Origin: Acidobacteriaceae bacterium
Lineage (GTDB): Bacteria > Acidobacteriota > Terriglobia > Terriglobales > Acidobacteriaceae
Length of the DNA: 64,000 nt
Assembly: GCA_003168355.1 (NCBI GenBank)
Contig: PMSQ01000201.1
Span: 1-64,000, forward strand
Direction of reading: 5' to 3'
A program made the translations under genes and the position numbers. Below the pieces are notes generated by a model that worked only from the letters and a program-made list of their open reading frames with translations, ran no database searches and was not told the origin of the DNA. Shown here piece by piece: positions 5,135 through 62,171 of this stretch. The first letter of the stretch is position 1; every line of letters begins with the position of its first letter.

Positions 5135-5299
5135 GGGCTAAAGCCCTCATTTCGGGGAGGTGCTTATCGCAGCGCTGAAAGCGCTGCGCCACCCAAAATC
5201 ATGCACCACCAGATCTAGGGCGCGCCTCGCTGCGCTCGGCGGGACAGCCGAAGGCGGCTGTCCCCACATGGGGCGGCTGTCTCTACATGGACTGTGGTG
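5135..5299. repeat. Composite of three palindromic intergenic elements
   Basis: Three elements lie side by side. At 5135-5146 GGGCT/AGCCC frames two bases. At 5162-5201 an element with stem GCAGCGCT/AGCGCTGC ends in CCACCCAAAATCA; its near-identical copy is at 8044-8082. At 5230-5263 the string CTGCGCTCGGCGGGAC runs into the stem GGACAGCC/GGCTGTCC followed by CCACATG; related copies are at 32321, 36905 and 57906, and the lead-in string recurs inside selA at 14688. They fill the spacer between the PilZ and DUF374 genes. Confidence 0.8.
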
Positions 5300-7541: not shown

Positions 7542-8148
7542 GTTGATGACTGGGGCCTTCCTCCCACAAGTAAATCAAGAATCTGGGTTTTCAGCAGGTG
7601 GGCATTTGTGCGGGTGAGACAAGCCCCAGTCCGTTACCTTAGAATGCCGCGAATTCATGTTCCACAAAATGAATCGGCCCAGCCATCCTGTCGGCTTTTG
7701 GCATTGATTTACCCGTGTGCTTCTGCCGGTCACGCTTGGTCTCCTCCATTAGACAGTCTATGTTAGACGAGTCCCTCAGTCGGCGAGAACAGGCCTATCG
7801 TCTGGCGAAGAATTCCGTTGGCCCTTGGATCTTTCGGGTGGGTAGCGGGCAGTTTTCGGGGCAGCATTTACGGTCGGATAATTGGTCATATCCAACTGTT
7901 AAACGATCTAACGAGGCATATTCGATGGAGCTCGTCACGGTAAGAACAAACGACTTAAGGGCACGGCTGAAGTCGTGTCCTTCCCGTGCGTTTTCGGTAA
8001 TCGAGTTTTTCGGTAAACTGTAAGCCGGTTCCTAAGACGAGTCGCTTATCGCAGCGCTAAAGCGCTGCGCCACCCAAAATCAAGTGCAACATCAGAGTTT
8101 CGCAACCTTTGAAGCTCTGCCCTTCCCAAGACCACTTATGAGTTGGGT
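7542..8148. repeat. Repeat-bearing spacer with two palindromes
   Basis: No gene is supported in these 600 bp. At 7950-7976 ACGACTT and AAGTCGT form a 7-bp stem, and GCACGG inside its loop can instead pair with CCGTGC just beyond it, giving two mutually exclusive folds. At 8044-8082 there is a near-identical copy of the element at 5162-5201 (stem GCAGCGCT/AGCGCTGC), differing mainly by one loop base. A 102-codon frame across this stretch reads through the palindromes and is rejected as a gene. Confidence 0.65.
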
Positions 8149-16135: not shown

Positions 16136-16666
16136 GTGGCTACGCTCTACACAATCGGACACTCAACGCGGCCGTTCAACGACCTAGTCGAAACGCTTCG
16201 GGCCCACGCGATTGAAACGCTGGTAGATATCCGCGCATTCCCCATGTCGCGGCGGCTGCCGCAATTCGATCGAGAATCCTTGGAAAAGAGTTTGCCCGTA
16301 GCCGGAATCAGGTATGTTTGGATGAAAGCCCTGGGAGGCTATCGCAAGAAAAGTCGCGAAGATTCCCCGCACATTGCACTCCGCAACGAAAGCTTTCGCA
16401 ACTACGCCGACTATATGCTGACTGCGGAATTCGAAAATGCAATGGCAGAACTGGTTGCACTGGCCGAAGGTTCCCGCATCGCCTACATGTGTGCTGAGCG
16501 TGTGTACTTCCACTGTCATCGGATGCTGGTCTCCGACTGGCTGGTCGCGCATGGACATGAGGTGATGCATATCGACGGGCCGGGCCCGGCAAAGCGTCAC
16601 AGCTTAACCGCAGAAGCGCGTATGGTGAATGGCGCACTGATTTACCGCGGTGACCGTCTGCTGTAG
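16136..16666 (+). CDS. DUF488 protein with CxxxCHR-type motif
   Basis: 176 residues opening LYTIGHSTRPF, the standard N-terminus of this branch. It continues with VDIRAFPMSRRLPQFD and ends with MCAERVYFHCHRMLVSDWL, the Cys/CHR block. The cysteine and CHR are conserved in the branch and may bind metal or nucleic acid, but no function is proven. GTG 16136 is preferred because family homology begins there; an in-frame TTG at 16112 is the alternative. It is only distantly related to the DUF488 protein at 13217. Confidence 0.85.
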   Translation: MATLYTIGHSTRPFNDLVETLRAHAIETLVDIRAFPMSRRLPQFDRESLEKSLPVAGIRYVWMKALGGYRKKSREDSPHIALRNESFRNYADYMLTAEFENAMAELVALAEGSRIAYMCAERVYFHCHRMLVSDWLVAHGHEVMHIDGPGPAKRHSLTAEARMVNGALIYRGDRLL

Positions 16667-16691
16667 TGTAGCGAGAAAGTGTAGCGAGAAT

Positions 16692-17069
16692 ATGATCGTC
16701 GGCACAGGCATTGACATCGCGGAGGTTCCACGAATCCGGCAATCGATTGAACGCTTTGGCGACCGCTTTCTGCAGCGCATCTATACCGCGGGCGAAATCC
16801 GCTACTGCGACTCCAAGGCCAACCGGGTGGAGCGTTACGCCGCACGCTTCGCTGCCAAAGAAGCGGCCATGAAGGCCTTGGGCACGGGCTGGAGCCACGG
16901 CGTGCGCTGGCGCGATTGCGAAGTCGCGCGGCTGCCGGGCGGACGTCCGACCATTGCGTTTCACGGAAAAGCCGGCGAGATTGCCGCCAGGCTTGGCGTG
17001 AAGAATACCGCTCTGTCGCTTTCGCACACTGCCGAGCAGGCCATCGCGCAAGTGATTTTGGAGAGCTAG
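16692..17069 (+). CDS. acpS: Holo-[acyl-carrier-protein] synthase
   Basis: 125 residues. It transfers 4'-phosphopantetheine from CoA to the ACP serine. Both signatures of the AcpS branch are present: GTGIDIAEVPRI at the N-terminus (Mg-binding Asp) and RYAARFAAKEAAMKALG near 52-68. The start is ATG 16692; immediately upstream GTGTAGCGAGAA occurs twice in tandem (with one base between), which includes the stop of the DUF488 gene. No Shine-Dalgarno sequence is obvious. Confidence 0.95.
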   Translation: MIVGTGIDIAEVPRIRQSIERFGDRFLQRIYTAGEIRYCDSKANRVERYAARFAAKEAAMKALGTGWSHGVRWRDCEVARLPGGRPTIAFHGKAGEIAARLGVKNTALSLSHTAEQAIAQVILES

Positions 17070-17087
17070 AGCCGGTCCCTCGGTGGC

Positions 17088-17169
17088 TGAAGCCCGCATT
17101 GATTGTGGACACTTTGCGCGGCCCGTTCGGCTTCGCTCAGGGCAGGCTGCTGAAGCGCCGCTCTTCCAC
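17088..17169. repeat. Composite palindromic element with a 26-bp insert
   Basis: From GGCTGAAGCCCGCA to GCGCCGCTCTTCCAC this stretch matches, in reverse orientation, the element at 60561-60620. The only major difference is an extra 26 bp at 17123-17148 (CCGTTCGG...GGCAGGCT), which the other copy lacks; removing it restores GCGCGGC joined to GCTGAAG. The inserted piece is of the same type as those at 24594, 41203 and 57920. Confidence 0.85.
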
Positions 17170-17276
17170 ATTCCTGTCTGCATTTTTAAGTTTTTCGACA
17201 CGAGGCTCAACGCCACGCCCTTTCGGGGCTCCGCGCTCTACCTAGCTTCTGCTAGACTGGCGCATTCCATTTCATC

Positions 17277-19670
17277 ATGTCCGCTACTATTCAGGCTGCC
17301 GTGCCGGTTACATCGTCCAGCGAGATTCCCGAACGAACGCTTCTTGTCGGCTTGGGACTCACCAGTTTTGCGGCATTGTTGCTGGAGCTGGCTCTCACGC
17401 GATTGTTCTCGGTGGTGCTCTTCTATCATTTTGCTTTTCTCGCGATTTCGATTGCGTTGCTGGGGCTGGGCGCCGGCGGCGTGTTCGCCTATCTGCTGAA
17501 AAAGCGCCTGGCGCGTTTTTCTACGCGCACGCTGGCGGCGCGGCTATGCATGGTCAACTCGGTGCTGGTGCTGCTGGTGCTGGAGGTGGTGCTGCACGTG
17601 CCGGTCACACTCACGGTGACGGGAGAGAATTTTCTGCGCCTGAGCGTTCTCTACGTCGACTCGTCCGTGCCTTTCTTCCTGACTGGATTGCTGTTCTCGG
17701 TGGTGTTTGCGCGCGAAACCTGGCGCGTGCCCCGGCTTTACGGAGCGGACCTGAGCGGCGGAGCGCTGGCGTGTCTGGCGGTGGTACCGCTGCTCAACTG
17801 GGTGGGAGGACCGAACACGATTCTGGCAGCGGCCGTGGCGATGGCGGCGGCCGCCATGGTCTGGGCGTCATCCTCAACCGCACGTAAGGTGGCAGGATGC
17901 CTGGCCGTTTTTTTCGTCTTGCTCATCGCGGCGAACCACTCCGGCCGGCTGATTGACGTGGTCTACGCCAAGGGCAGGTTTCGCAACCCGCGTTGGGTGG
18001 AATTTGCGCGCTGGAATGCGCTCGCGCGCGTGGAAGTGGATCGCCAGGGCCAGGGCAAGGCCATCGTCATCGACGCCGACGCTCAAACCTCCATCATGAA
18101 TTGCGACCTCGCACAGTGGCGCGGTTCTGCGTGCGAGCAGGAACAGATGTCGGCTCCGCCGGCGTTGGCCAACGTTCTGCGTCCGCACGGGGAGTTTGCC
18201 ATTATCGGGCCGGGGGGCGGTGTGGACGTGCTGCGCGCGGTGGCGAATGGCAGCCCCAGCGTGACGGGCATTGAGATCAATCCCATCATTGCGGATACGA
18301 TCATGCGCGGGCGTTACGCCGACTATGCCCAGCATCTTTACGAACGTCCTGAGGTCCACATTCACGTGACCGACGGCCGTTCTTACCTGCGCTCCACGCC
18401 GCAACAATTCGACGTCGTGCAAATGACGCTGGTGGATACCTGGGCCTCGACCGCAGCGGGCGCTTTCGCGCTGAGTGAAAACAATCTTTACACGGTGGAA
18501 GCTTTCCGTGAATATTTCGAGCATCTCAAACCGGATGGTATGGTGGCGATCACCCGCTGGGAGTTCCGCGAACCGCGGGAGGCGCTGCGCGTGGTAGCAG
18601 TCGCGATGCAGGCGTTGCACAGCCTGGGCGTGGCTAACCCGGCGGGCAACTTTATCGTGGCCTCGCAGGGCGCGCTCGATGAAGACGGAATTCCAGTGGT
18701 GGTGCTGGCCAAGAAAACTGCTTTTACAGTGGCAGAAGAATCCGCCGTGCGGGCTCATTTCGCTGAATATGACGAACTCGATCCTCTTTATCTGCCTTCG
18801 CAGCCGGGACATGATCCGTTTTCCGATCTGATCGCGAGCAACGATCCCTACCGATTCGCGCAGAGCTATGCCTACAACGTGTCGCCGGTCACCGACAACG
18901 CGCCGTTTTTCTTTTTCACGCTCAAAGCAGGGCAAATCCTCGGCCAGAGTGGAGTGCCGCATGGAATCGACTGGAAGGTGAATTTGGGAGTTCTGGTTCT
19001 GATTCTTGTGCTGGTCATTTCTCTGGTAGCCGTTTTGGGCTTCCTGATTCTGCCGCTCGCGCTGCAGGGAAGCCGGCACTCGCCGCTTCCGCTGCTTTAT
19101 TTCGTGGCGGTTGGTCTGGGCTACATTCTGGTGGAGATTGCGTTTATCCAGCGCTTTGTGCTTTTTCTGGGGCACCCAACCTATGCGCTGACGGTGGTGA
19201 TCTTTTTGCTGATGCTGTCGAGCGGGGCCGGAAGCCTGTTTTCGCGCCGCTGGCTTCCCCGCACCGAAATGGCCTGGATGCCGCTTGTACTGGTGATTGT
19301 GGCGTTGATTGCCGAGGTATTTCTTCTGCCCCGCGGGCTGGCGGCGTGGGTGGGGTTAGCGTTCGGTTTTCGGCTGGTGGTGAGCGGCCTGTTGCTGATA
19401 CCCCTCGGTTTCGTAATGGGGATGCCGTTCCCAACGGGCTTGCGGGCGCTGGGTGCCCGCTCTGGCCTTGATGTCCCCAGCGGGGCGACCAGCGCGGACA
19501 ATGCCGTGGAGTGGGCCTGGGCGATGAATGCCGCTGCCAGCGTTCTGGGTTCCGTGCTGGCCATGGTGATCGCGATCCAGTTTGGTTTGACCGTGACTCT
19601 GGCCTGCGGAATCGCGGCCTACCTGCTCGCCCTCTTGCTGCTGCCAGCCCTTCGCCCGCAACGCGCTTAG
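17277..19670 (+). CDS. Polytopic membrane protein with spermidine-synthase-like domain
   Basis: 797 residues. About six membrane helices precede residue 225, and another set follows 570. Between them (about 240-540) lies a SAM-dependent methyltransferase-fold domain of the spermidine synthase type: FAIIGPGGGVDVLRA (motif I), EINPIIADTI, HVTDGRSYLRS and QFDVVQMTLVDTW. Large fusions of this kind are common in acidobacteria, but their substrate is unknown, and an aminopropyltransferase function should not be assumed. It is preceded by a repeat-filled spacer and followed 104 bp later by an MlaD-type gene on the same strand. Confidence 0.85.
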   Translation: MSATIQAAVPVTSSSEIPERTLLVGLGLTSFAALLLELALTRLFSVVLFYHFAFLAISIALLGLGAGGVFAYLLKKRLARFSTRTLAARLCMVNSVLVLLVLEVVLHVPVTLTVTGENFLRLSVLYVDSSVPFFLTGLLFSVVFARETWRVPRLYGADLSGGALACLAVVPLLNWVGGPNTILAAAVAMAAAAMVWASSSTARKVAGCLAVFFVLLIAANHSGRLIDVVYAKGRFRNPRWVEFARWNALARVEVDRQGQGKAIVIDADAQTSIMNCDLAQWRGSACEQEQMSAPPALANVLRPHGEFAIIGPGGGVDVLRAVANGSPSVTGIEINPIIADTIMRGRYADYAQHLYERPEVHIHVTDGRSYLRSTPQQFDVVQMTLVDTWASTAAGAFALSENNLYTVEAFREYFEHLKPDGMVAITRWEFREPREALRVVAVAMQALHSLGVANPAGNFIVASQGALDEDGIPVVVLAKKTAFTVAEESAVRAHFAEYDELDPLYLPSQPGHDPFSDLIASNDPYRFAQSYAYNVSPVTDNAPFFFFTLKAGQILGQSGVPHGIDWKVNLGVLVLILVLVISLVAVLGFLILPLALQGSRHSPLPLLYFVAVGLGYILVEIAFIQRFVLFLGHPTYALTVVIFLLMLSSGAGSLFSRRWLPRTEMAWMPLVLVIVALIAEVFLLPRGLAAWVGLAFGFRLVVSGLLLIPLGFVMGMPFPTGLRALGARSGLDVPSGATSADNAVEWAWAMNAAASVLGSVLAMVIAIQFGLTVTLACGIAAYLLALLLLPALRPQRA

Positions 19671-41202: not shown

Positions 41203-41226
41203 CCCTTCGACTTCGCTCAGGGCCGG
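41203..41226. repeat. Mini-element copy in spacer
   Basis: CCCTTCGACTTCGCTCAGGG plus CCGGC is a member of the mini-element family found at 17123, 24594 and 57920. This copy stands in intergenic DNA without an obvious host palindrome. Confidence 0.7.
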
Positions 41227-41324
41227 CTTTGTTCGACAACTGCAGGGCGGCATTCGTATGGCTAAGCTAATAGCCCCTTGGTGGGTGAGTTTGGAACTTA
41301 AGCAATTTGGTCGTGGTTAGATTT

Positions 41325-41350
41325 CGCGGGCAAGAGTGCCCGCGCCACAC
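41325..41350. repeat. Perfect 8-bp palindrome CGCGGGCA/TGCCCGCG with CCACAC tail
   Basis: Stem around AGAG followed by CCACAC. An inverted copy with the same stem and tail is at 62097-62122, and the in-frame element of selA (14703-14727) has a shorter version with a CCCACAC tail. It abuts the stop codon of the gene at 41353. Confidence 0.8.
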
Positions 41351-41352
41351 AA

Positions 41353-42090
41353 TCACCCGCGCCGCTTATACAGCACCGCAAACTCAAACCCCGCATTCGC
41401 TGGGAACATCTCCGCCACTTTCCTCAATCGCTCGGCCAGCGCCGAAGGCGCCAGCAGCGGATAGTCACGCTCCCGCAGATCGTAATAGTCCACATCCAGG
41501 TACAGCGAAAGCAGATAAATCGAGATGGTGTCGGAAAACGTGGCCTCGAAGTATTCGTTCTTGAAGCGCTCCCCGTCAGCCCCGCCGGCTAAGGCGAGCT
41601 TGCGGGCTTCCCAGGCGTCGAGCGAAGTTTCTCCGCGCGTTCCGGCTTCCACTTGTTTCCAGGCCAGTGCGCTGAACTCCTCAGAAACTCCCGCGGACTC
41701 CACCAGCGCATGTCCCACGTTGATATAGAACTCAAACGCCACGGAAAACTTGTCGTCCATCAACCGCGTGGAGATGAACACGCACTGCGAATCGCCCAGA
41801 TTCAGGTTGCGATGGCACACCGCATTGTCGCTGAGCGCCACGTCATAGCGGTCCGCGATCAGGATCTCTTCTCCCTGGGTCACCGCCAGCGGCACAAAGT
41901 AATAGGCCTTGCGTTTGAGAGCCGCGGCAATTTTGGTCGGCACCGCCGCGATCATGCGCTCCAGGTCAAACGAGCTGATCGAGGCCTCGCCCGCCACGGC
42001 ATAGCACACCCCGTTCGCCGCCTGTGAAACCGGCGTCGTCCGGACCACATCCGCGGGATTCCGCGTAATAGCTGGCGCTGCCTGCGACAT
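41353..42090 (-). CDS. Cytoplasmic protein of unknown function
   Basis: 245 residues, no signal peptide or membrane segment. Conserved-looking blocks such as GEEILIADRYDVALSDNAVC, CVFISTRLMDDKFSVAFEFY and YLLSLYLDVDYYDLRERDYP give it the appearance of a real, structured protein, but I do not recognise a family. ATG 42090 is preferred over 42108 because a -10 hexamer (TAAGAT at 42098-42103, or TATAAG) lies seven to nine bases upstream and overlaps the longer version. It is divergent from the cupin gene. Confidence 0.7.
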   Translation of the reverse strand: MSQAAPAITRNPADVVRTTPVSQAANGVCYAVAGEASISSFDLERMIAAVPTKIAAALKRKAYYFVPLAVTQGEEILIADRYDVALSDNAVCHRNLNLGDSQCVFISTRLMDDKFSVAFEFYINVGHALVESAGVSEEFSALAWKQVEAGTRGETSLDAWEARKLALAGGADGERFKNEYFEATFSDTISIYLLSLYLDVDYYDLRERDYPLLAPSALAERLRKVAEMFPANAGFEFAVLYKRRG

Positions 42091-59509: not shown

Positions 59510-60559
59510 ATGTCCGCCCCCGACTCCCTCTTCGTTCGTGCCTGCAAGTCGCAACCAGTCGACCGCACCCCCGTCTGGTTCATGCGCCAGGCAGGACGCT
59601 ACATGCCCGAGTACCGCGCTGTTCGCAAGCAGCACTCGCTGCTCGAAATCTGCAAGAAGCCGGCGCTCGCCGCCGAAGTCACCATCACCGCCGCTGAAAT
59701 TCTCCAAGTCGACGCCGCCATCATCTTCGCCGACCTCTTGCTTCCGCTCGAAGTCATGGGCCTGCCCTTTCATTTCTCCGCCGGAGAAGGCCCGGTCATC
59801 GAGAAACCTGTGCGCACCACCGAAGATGTTGCCCAACTCCGCACCGACCGCGCCTCCGATCTGGGCTATGTCTCCGAGGCCGTCGGCATAGTCGCGAAGC
59901 ATTTCGCCGGAAACCTTCCCGTCATCGGTTTCTGCGGAGCGCCCTTCACCCTCGCCAGTTACATGATCGAAGGCAGCGGCTCCCGCCACTATCTCCACGC
60001 CAAGAAGATGATGTACAACTCTTCCGCCGACTGGGACGCACTGATGCGCAAGCTGGTTGACGTTACGGCCGAGTACTCTGCTGCCCAGGTGCGTGCCGGC
60101 GCCGATGTCATCCAGATTTTCGACAGTTGGGTCGGCTGCCTCAGCGTGGAAGATTACCGCCGCTACGTCCTGCCGCATGTGAAAAGGTTAGTGATGCGTT
60201 TGCAGAAGGCTGGCGCGCCCATCATTTATTTTGGCACGGACAGCGCCACGCTGCTTCCTGCGATGAATGAAACTGGAGCCGAAGTCATCGGCCTCGACTG
60301 GCGCATCCCGCTCGACAAAGGCTGGAGCGATCTCGAACATCGCTGCGCCGTGCAGGGCAATCTCGATCCCGTCCTGCTCTTCGCCGATTGGGAAGAATTA
60401 AAATCTCGCGCCGAACACATTCTCCACCTCGCCGCCGGACGCCCCGGCCACATCTTTAACCTAGGCCACGGCATCCTACCCGAAACGCCGGTTGAAAACG
60501 TGAAGAACCTGGCTCGCCTGGTGCAAGAATATTCGGCTGCTAGGAAAGGTGTGCGGTAA
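59510..60559 (+). CDS. hemE: Uroporphyrinogen decarboxylase
   Basis: 349 residues. It removes four carboxyls from uroporphyrinogen III in cytoplasmic heme synthesis. Signatures: PVWFMRQAGRYMPEYR near 21-36 (substrate-binding Arg), GFCGAPFTLASYMIEG near 140, QIFDSWVGCLS near 203 and IGLDWRIPLD near 262. ATG 59510 gives the usual length; a frame extending to 59420 has no homology. It precedes hemG by a repeat-bearing 130-bp spacer. Confidence 0.96.
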   Translation: MSAPDSLFVRACKSQPVDRTPVWFMRQAGRYMPEYRAVRKQHSLLEICKKPALAAEVTITAAEILQVDAAIIFADLLLPLEVMGLPFHFSAGEGPVIEKPVRTTEDVAQLRTDRASDLGYVSEAVGIVAKHFAGNLPVIGFCGAPFTLASYMIEGSGSRHYLHAKKMMYNSSADWDALMRKLVDVTAEYSAAQVRAGADVIQIFDSWVGCLSVEDYRRYVLPHVKRLVMRLQKAGAPIIYFGTDSATLLPAMNETGAEVIGLDWRIPLDKGWSDLEHRCAVQGNLDPVLLFADWEELKSRAEHILHLAAGRPGHIFNLGHGILPETPVENVKNLARLVQEYSAARKGVR

Positions 60560-60560
60560 C

Positions 60561-60620
60561 GTGGAAGAGCGGCGCTTCAGCGCCGCGTAAAGTGTCAAAG
60601 ATAACTGCGGGCTTTAGCCC
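60561..60620. repeat. Composite palindromic element, uninterrupted form
   Basis: Contains GCGGCGC/GCGCCGC around TTCA (60569-60586) and GGGCT/AGCCC around TT (60609-60620), joined by GTAAAGTGTCAAAGATAACT. Read in reverse it matches 17088-17169 over both ends, without the 26-bp insert present there. It fills most of the hemE-hemG spacer. Confidence 0.85.
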
Positions 60621-62081: not shown

Positions 62082-62096
62082 AGGTTGGCAATGCTT

Positions 62097-62122
62097 GTGT
62101 GGCGCGGGCACTCTTGCCCGCG
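62097..62122. repeat. Inverted copy of the CGCGGGCA/TGCCCGCG palindrome
   Basis: GTGTGG precedes CGCGGGCA, CTCT, TGCCCGCG. It is the reverse complement of 41325-41350 over the stem and the six-base tail. It lies in the 90-bp convergent gap between hemG and recQ, where it might also act as a bidirectional transcript end. Confidence 0.8.
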
Positions 62123-62171
62123 AAATGCATGCGGTGTCACAAGTCTTGCAGGAGCAGCCCCATTCCAAACG

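Follow-up and report, generated by a model that had tools for sequence, protein, structure and literature searches.

Filled and empty copies in the window

Two copies of a short palindromic repeat lie in the window (the whole stretch of 64,000 nucleotides that was analysed), and one of them is interrupted by 26 bp that the other lacks. The question raised by this locus is whether such a short sequence is an insertable unit of DNA and, if so, how it is moved. The window belongs to contig C187 of a 5.30-Mb Acidobacteriota genome in 213 contigs (G000), referred to below as the source genome. The 26 bp in question, CCGTTCGGCTTCGCTCAGGGCAGGCT, occupy positions 17123..17148 (+ strand) between GCGCGGC and GCTGAAG. 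The interrupted host repeat consists of a left part at 17084..17122 (+; GGCTGAAGCC ... GCGCGGC) and a right part at 17149..17172 (+; GCTGAAGCGCCGCTCTTCCACATT), in which CCAC at 17166-17169 corresponds, on the minus strand, to the GTGG tag of a RAYT-type REP. The site is flanked by a gene for a holo-ACP synthase-like protein (16650..17069, +) and by one for a membrane protein with a spermidine-synthase-like part (17277..19670, +), both assigned from a reading of the translation alone. The empty host repeat is located at 60558..60620 on the minus strand, where the join ACGCGGC|GCTGAAG has nothing between its halves and the hairpin GCGGCGC-TGAA-GCGCCGC is found at 60569-60586.

The interrupted copy can be written ...GGACACTTTGCGCGGC|CCGTTCGGCTTCGCTCAGGGCAGGCT|GCTGAAGCGCCGCTCTTCCACATT and the empty one, read on the minus strand, ...GACACTTTACGCGGC|GCTGAAGCGCCGCTCTTCCACGTT. 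The indel is exactly 26 bp and the placement of the gap is unique, with zero microhomology, which confirms the observation of an earlier note on this DNA that the extra bases interrupt a join left intact in the other copy. The description of the two palindromes in that note as equal except for the 26 bp is nevertheless too strong since the left arms differ at 8 of 39 positions, the right arms being identical at 23 of 24. A second copy of the unit (CCCTTCGACTTCGCTCAGGGCCGGCT) is present at 41203..41228 (+), apparently in a degenerate GTGTGGGT-GGAC-CTC palindrome; this host assignment is weak, the best empty match displaying 6 mismatches in 28 bases. Other repeats were noticed in the window. A GTGG-type palindrome (GTGGCGCGGGCACTCTTGCCCGCG), an empty member of one host family, is present as two inverted, almost identical copies at 41321-41355 and 62092-62126. 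An exact 24-nt repeat, AAAGCGCTGCGCCACCCAAAATCA, is found at 5178-5201 and 8059-8082, and the same motif stands in place of the GGGCTGAAGCCC half of the host composite at loci L044 and L053.

Copy numbers and host repeats in the source genome

The unit, searched as CTTCGRCTTCGCTCAGGGCNGGCT with up to 3 mismatches, was retrieved at 55 places in the source genome and the host end GCTGAAGCGCCGCTCTTCCAC at 66, the reversed-pattern controls returning 0 in both cases. A genome-wide tabulation of filled and empty copies, proposed in the earlier note, came out in favour of insertion: the host copies are mostly empty (about 60) and all of these display one fixed GCGGC|GCTGAAG join, and members of at least eight further repeat families of this genome are split by the unit. 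Two further host copies are filled at approximately the same point: that on contig C69 contains an insert of 27 bp, and that on C80 is degenerate.

On the minus strand the host reads GTGG-AAGA-GCGGCGC-TTCA-GCGCCGC. A GCTGAAG REP of this family directly adjoins a Y1 transposase gene (L065, contig C107), and a second host family, GGACAGCCG-AGGG-CGGCTGTCCCCAC (the GGACAGCC REPs), is found on both sides of another Y1 gene (L070, contig C122). The same layout has been described as a REPtron for TnpA-REP (PMC6006769). None of the 11 Y1_Tnp genes of the source genome is located within the window; the assertion that the window holds no transposase is therefore supported for Y1 transposases, the only kind for which it was checked. 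The empty host folds better than its shuffled versions, with z of about -2 to -3; no such advantage is seen for the filled host, so that the hairpin is lost on insertion. This applies to the window copy, whose host is a GTGG-tagged REP.

Junctions and ends of the unit

The flanks of 56 distinct copies were joined and sought in about 0.66 Mb of sampled DNA of the same genome, with some overlap in the sampling. An empty counterpart (at most 4 mismatches in 28 bases) was obtained for 25 of the 56 filled sites, as compared to 4/54 with swapped flanks, 1/56 at random sites and 2/56 at shifted sites. The hosts of the filled sites include GCGGGCACTC|CTGCCCGC, GGACAGCC|GAGGGCGGCTGTCC and its other orientation GCCGCC|CTCGGC, as well as GAGATCC|CTCGC...GGGATGACG, CAGATTC|CTCACGG and a CACAGAG repeat. 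In confident pairs, defined by at least 36 of 40 flank matches, the insert measures 24-26 bp and most commonly 25 bp (CCTTCGRCTTCGCTCAGGGCAGGCT); it is exactly 25 bp in all 16 confident pairs of an alphaproteobacterium (G044). The length of 26 bp proposed initially is consequently valid at the window site, the genome-wide unit being 25 bp long. A few of the pairs listed for named genomes are tandem copies of the unit and were left out as independent evidence. Three head-to-tail copies with a 25-bp period are found at G030:C52:80492-80562, with comparable tandems at L251, L273 and L294.

The base to the left of the insert is C in nearly all copies, mostly as YC, and the left neighbours are variable (NNYC) and derived from the host. 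Junctions often share 1-2 nt (C or CT), and unambiguous ones are available as well: GCC^GAGG and CTCC^ACTCC, each with 40/40 flank matches, and CGTC^ATTTC. No target duplication is present at these three junctions, and the ends of the 25-mer contain no inverted repeats. Insertion often occurs near the loop of a palindrome: the flanks form stems of at least 7 bp across the insert in 15.2% of the cases in named genomes and 18.5% in the source genome, versus 0.8% and 2.6%, respectively, for swapped controls. The central claim of the earlier note, namely that the sequence behaves as an insertable unit, is upheld by the many unrelated hosts, the constant junctions and the many empty counterparts, and further by an orthologous site where two relatives possess the host without the unit.

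Orthologous sites and origin of the window copy

This orthologous site is C93:8118 (L025), filled in the source genome and in G033, where the unit stands between TTTCACCA and the CACAGAG repeat. The host repeat is present without the unit in G036 and G025. The comparison is not base-exact, as the filled allele contains about 7 further host-like bases. It is also the only orthologous pair, nearly all the filled/empty pairs being paralogous repeats; at L086 no such pair was obtained, the relatives lacking the whole composite of host and unit, as they do in the orthologous intergenic region at the window locus.

The filled form GCGGCC(C)(A/G)TTCGRC...GGCAGGC(C/T)GCTGAAGCGCCGC is itself repeated in G025, G033, G040 and other genomes. 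In other species of the genus, sixteen composite copies have the same join as the window copy and, like it, an extra A or G before TTCG. The window copy could therefore belong to a REP subfamily made up of host plus unit and have reached this locus whole. The absence of the whole composite from the orthologous region of the relatives points the same way, but in its left arm the window copy best matches empty copies of the source genome (32/37 and 30/37 matches, versus at most 27/37 for the composites). We regard arrival as a composite as a serious possibility, while leaning slightly against it. The general claim of an insertable unit does not rest on the window pair.

Spread across phyla

The exact 26-mer CCCTTCGRCTTCGCTCAGGGCAGGCT occurs in at least 119 stretches of named genomes from ten or more phyla. 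Among the matches listed are Acidobacteriota, Chloroflexota, Kiritimatiellae, Alpha-, Beta- and Gammaproteobacteria, Nitrospirae, Nitrospinae, Rokubacteria, Verrucomicrobia, Fibrobacter, Oligoflexales and Bacteroidetes. Counts of the core in whole genomes reach 47 in G044, an alphaproteobacterial MAG (87 when 2 mismatches are allowed). An Acidobacteriales MAG has 37 copies, genomes of Chloroflexi and Nitrospirae have 25-27, a Kiritimatiellae MAG has 24, and the isolate Edaphobacter aggregans has 13. Single hits in unusual phyla may correspond to contaminant contigs in MAGs; contamination is an unlikely source of the high whole-genome counts.

The exact copies in other phyla are located inside lineage-specific hosts. 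Filled and empty forms were found on the same contig at L219, L260 and L267, the empty forms being CAACCC|CTCTCCC in Nitrospirae, GGGACTGAC|GTCCC in Acidobacteriales and a CTTCCAA minisatellite in Chloroflexi. In Methylococcaceae the unit occupies the loop of a 12-bp stem. In G044, a 14-bp tandem repeat (CTCGATACGGCCCC) and a 25-bp insert add up to the 39-bp period of the array, which is also the spacing of neighbouring copies, and CGTC repeats are split by the unit exactly between CGTC and AT. Pairs of + and - units about 63 bp apart were also observed in this genome (L310-L359), and a recurrent host repeat, CCCCCAGACCCCC...GGGGCTTCGCCCC, was observed in Dehalococcoidia and other Chloroflexi (L193, L218, L232, L246, L284 and L289). 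The occurrence of an identical 25-mer in lineage-specific repeats of at least ten phyla implies that transfer has been wide or else that an unknown enzyme imposes a strong constraint.

Strand bias and folding

The orientation of 46 copies of the source genome was compared to the GC skew of up to 10 kb of flanking DNA on each side, the skew serving as a proxy for the direction of replication as the origin is unmapped. The TTCG strand coincides with the G-rich strand in 38 of the 46 copies (p=1e-5), or 28 of 32 when counted per region; the 8-mers of the unit found elsewhere, used as control, gave 50.7% (n=968). This bias is independent of gene direction: in co-directional contexts with a C-rich coding strand, orientation follows the skew in 14 cases and the coding strand in 3. 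Two RAYT-REP families, examined on sampled contigs of the source genome, place their GTGG strand on the C-rich strand in 29/34 and 27/33 copies, again independently of the coding strand, and this bias could itself serve to test single-strand models of REP spread. The bias of the unit is not significant in G044 taken alone (18/26, p=0.08; weak skew) and is weak in pooled short contigs (71/116). With the reservation attached to the proxy, the strand bias suggests insertion of, or into, single strands at the replication fork.

As single-stranded DNA the unit folds no better than its shuffled versions, in a model that leaves out non-canonical pairs, so a substrate hairpin of the IS200 or REP kind has no support from folding energy and a hairpin in the unit was not retained. 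An outer stem around the conserved core could not be supported by covariation either, because the core is almost always accompanied by CCCT/AGGG in the sequences compared. The core of the minus strand reads GCGNAGY with a variable middle base. The d(GCGNAGC) sequences are known as very stable DNA mini-hairpins; the resemblance is put forward as an idea only, standard folding energies being against a hairpin.

Proposed mechanism and rival explanations

The unit is probably a non-autonomous, REP-sized mobile DNA of 25 bp (24-26 bp), of a single-strand type and moved in trans. Found or cleanly missing at matching positions in dozens of unrelated repeats, it behaves as one of the smallest mobile sequences known. 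This mobility is deduced from the comparison of filled and empty sites, as no transposition event was seen. We infer that the unit would move as single-stranded DNA and enter DNA exposed at the replication fork, cleavage and strand transfer taking place at YC^ on one strand, as in IS200/IS605. The enzyme would act in trans, not being encoded by the unit, and the nearest chemistry would be that of a Y1 (HUH) enzyme of the RAYT kind. The IS200/IS605 elements insert 3' of their target tetranucleotide, and by analogy a target 3' of YC without duplication would fit this chemistry. Y1 cannot be the sole answer since some unit-rich genomes show no Y1 gene.

Movement by the resident RAYTs (TnpA-REP, Y1), the unit being a stray substrate beside their own GTGG REPs, has the 11 Y1_Tnp genes of the source genome and the host REPs adjoining two of them to commend it. 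TnpA-REP cuts at CT and, where GTGG serves as the guide, at CC (PMC8266576), which may be considered near, not identical, to the YC target of the unit. The counts of unit and Y1 genes are correlated over 41 genomes (rho 0.47), but the coefficient drops to 0.27 (not significant) in genomes at least 90% complete, and G037, which is 99% complete, contains 9 Y1 genes and zero exact copies of the unit. G044 (87 copies) and G047 (15 copies) yielded no Y1_Tnp or NF047646 match; both are MAGs of unstated completeness, and this absence is no proof. Furthermore, the unit carries no GT[AG]G tag and was found beside none of 10 Y1 loci inspected with 1.5-kb flanks and up to 4 mismatches. A RAYT as sole mover was rejected on account of the vanishing correlation in near-complete genomes and of the many copies in Y1-free ones, and we consider the stray-substrate explanation unlikely. 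Spread without any dedicated enzyme, through replication slippage, template switching or gene conversion among repeats, would agree with the facts that all hosts are repeats, that the copies follow the replication strand, that junctions often share C or CT and that tandem units exist (L251, L294, G030:C52). It has to contend with constant 25-bp ends in unrelated hosts without flanking homology, with zero-microhomology junctions bordered by 40/40 flank matches and with an exact sequence kept across phyla, and it appears improbable. The remaining alternative, in which the host palindromes contained the 25-26 bp from the start and the 'empty' copies have lost them by deletion, is scarcely credible. 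It can draw on the composite form, which is itself repeated in relatives, but some 60 empty host copies of the genome share one join and the unit resides in many unrelated repeats, including minisatellites and the repeats of other phyla. Deletions with variable ends, named in the earlier note as the outcome that would refute insertion, fail as an account of the host palindromes, and constant junctions in many unrelated hosts led us to reject the deletion model, which would call for independent deletions ending at identical points in each family.

A more far-reaching version of the preferred reading, that of a mobile DNA moved in trans, is offered only tentatively and remains somewhat doubtful: the 25-bp sequence alone would be a complete substrate for single-strand-type transposition in at least ten phyla, served by an enzyme other than the known Y1/RAYT proteins. 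If this is true, no other mobile DNA unit with base-exact filled and empty sites would be as small or as widely distributed among taxa, and the enzyme involved would be undescribed. The mobility of single short palindromic repeats without a cognate transposase, and the identity of the mover, were left open by previous work (PMC3733652). Base-exact filled and empty sites, the YC^ rule, the replication-strand bias and Y1-free genomes make these points testable. No paper containing the motif letters or its relatives was found in the literature, and a broader search gave no description of this repeat.

Comparison with known systems

The unit shares with the GTAG/GTGG REPs and their RAYTs a size of 20-40 bp, an intergenic location, a high copy number, the absence of coding capacity and a strand bias like that of the RAYT-REPs of its own genome, and its hosts here are such REPs. 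It differs from them by sharp 25-bp ends as single copies and by the absence of a GT[AG]G tag at a hairpin foot, its minus strand displaying AGCCTG before CCCTGAGCG... and no GTRG. A flanking tnpA-REP gene, a feature displayed by the host REPs, is also lacking for the unit (0/10 loci). In Pseudomonas fluorescens SBW25 mobility was attributed to the doublets (REPINs), singlets being regarded as remnants (PMC3116915); unlike these REPs, single 25-bp insertions suggest that the present unit is mobile as a singlet.

Two types of REP, GTAG and CGTC, were distinguished by Di Nocera et al. (2013), the CGTC type being without a transposase (PMC3733652). The CGTC REPs resemble the unit as short palindrome-like repeats found in many phyla. 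The unit may share their lack of a dedicated transposase: none was found linked to it, and the two many-copy MAGs devoid of a Y1 match are those of unstated completeness mentioned above. In G044 they are themselves hosts, the unit being inserted between their CGTC tag and AT stem. The unit lacks a CGTC, TGTC or CCTC tag of its own, an AT-initiated stem of 8-9 bp (its stem would be CCCT/AGGG) and a CCA tail. The closest precedent is provided by the GTAG-23 REPs of Thermomicrobium roseum, which are inserted in small palindromes, hundreds of unfilled targets being available (PMC3733652). Their sequence is different and GTAG-tagged, and our unit enters many unrelated targets across phyla. REP palindromes are likewise the insertion targets of ISPsy8, ISPpu9, ISPpu10 and ISRm22 (PMC1525189), which are complete IS elements with transposase genes as opposed to a 25-bp unit.

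The IS200/IS605 elements (IS608, ISDra2) are matched in the insertion 3' of a short fixed sequence without duplication and in the replication-tied strand orientation, the latter through the GC-skew proxy (38/46 copies on the G-rich strand). They are not matched in their long subterminal hairpins, the folding of the unit being no better than that of shuffles, nor in tnpA, and the target of the unit is only YC. The terminal inverted repeats and target site duplication that define MITEs are missing. Since it lacks both tags, an AT stem, inverted repeats and target duplication, the unit belongs to none of the GTAG-REP, CGTC-REP and MITE families. The earlier note is right that no autonomous element known is so short, but REPs, which are non-autonomous and measure 20-40 bp, are a known class of this size. 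The best reading, by analogy, is that this insertable, REP-sized unit of 25 bp would work like a single-strand element of the REP/IS200 type.
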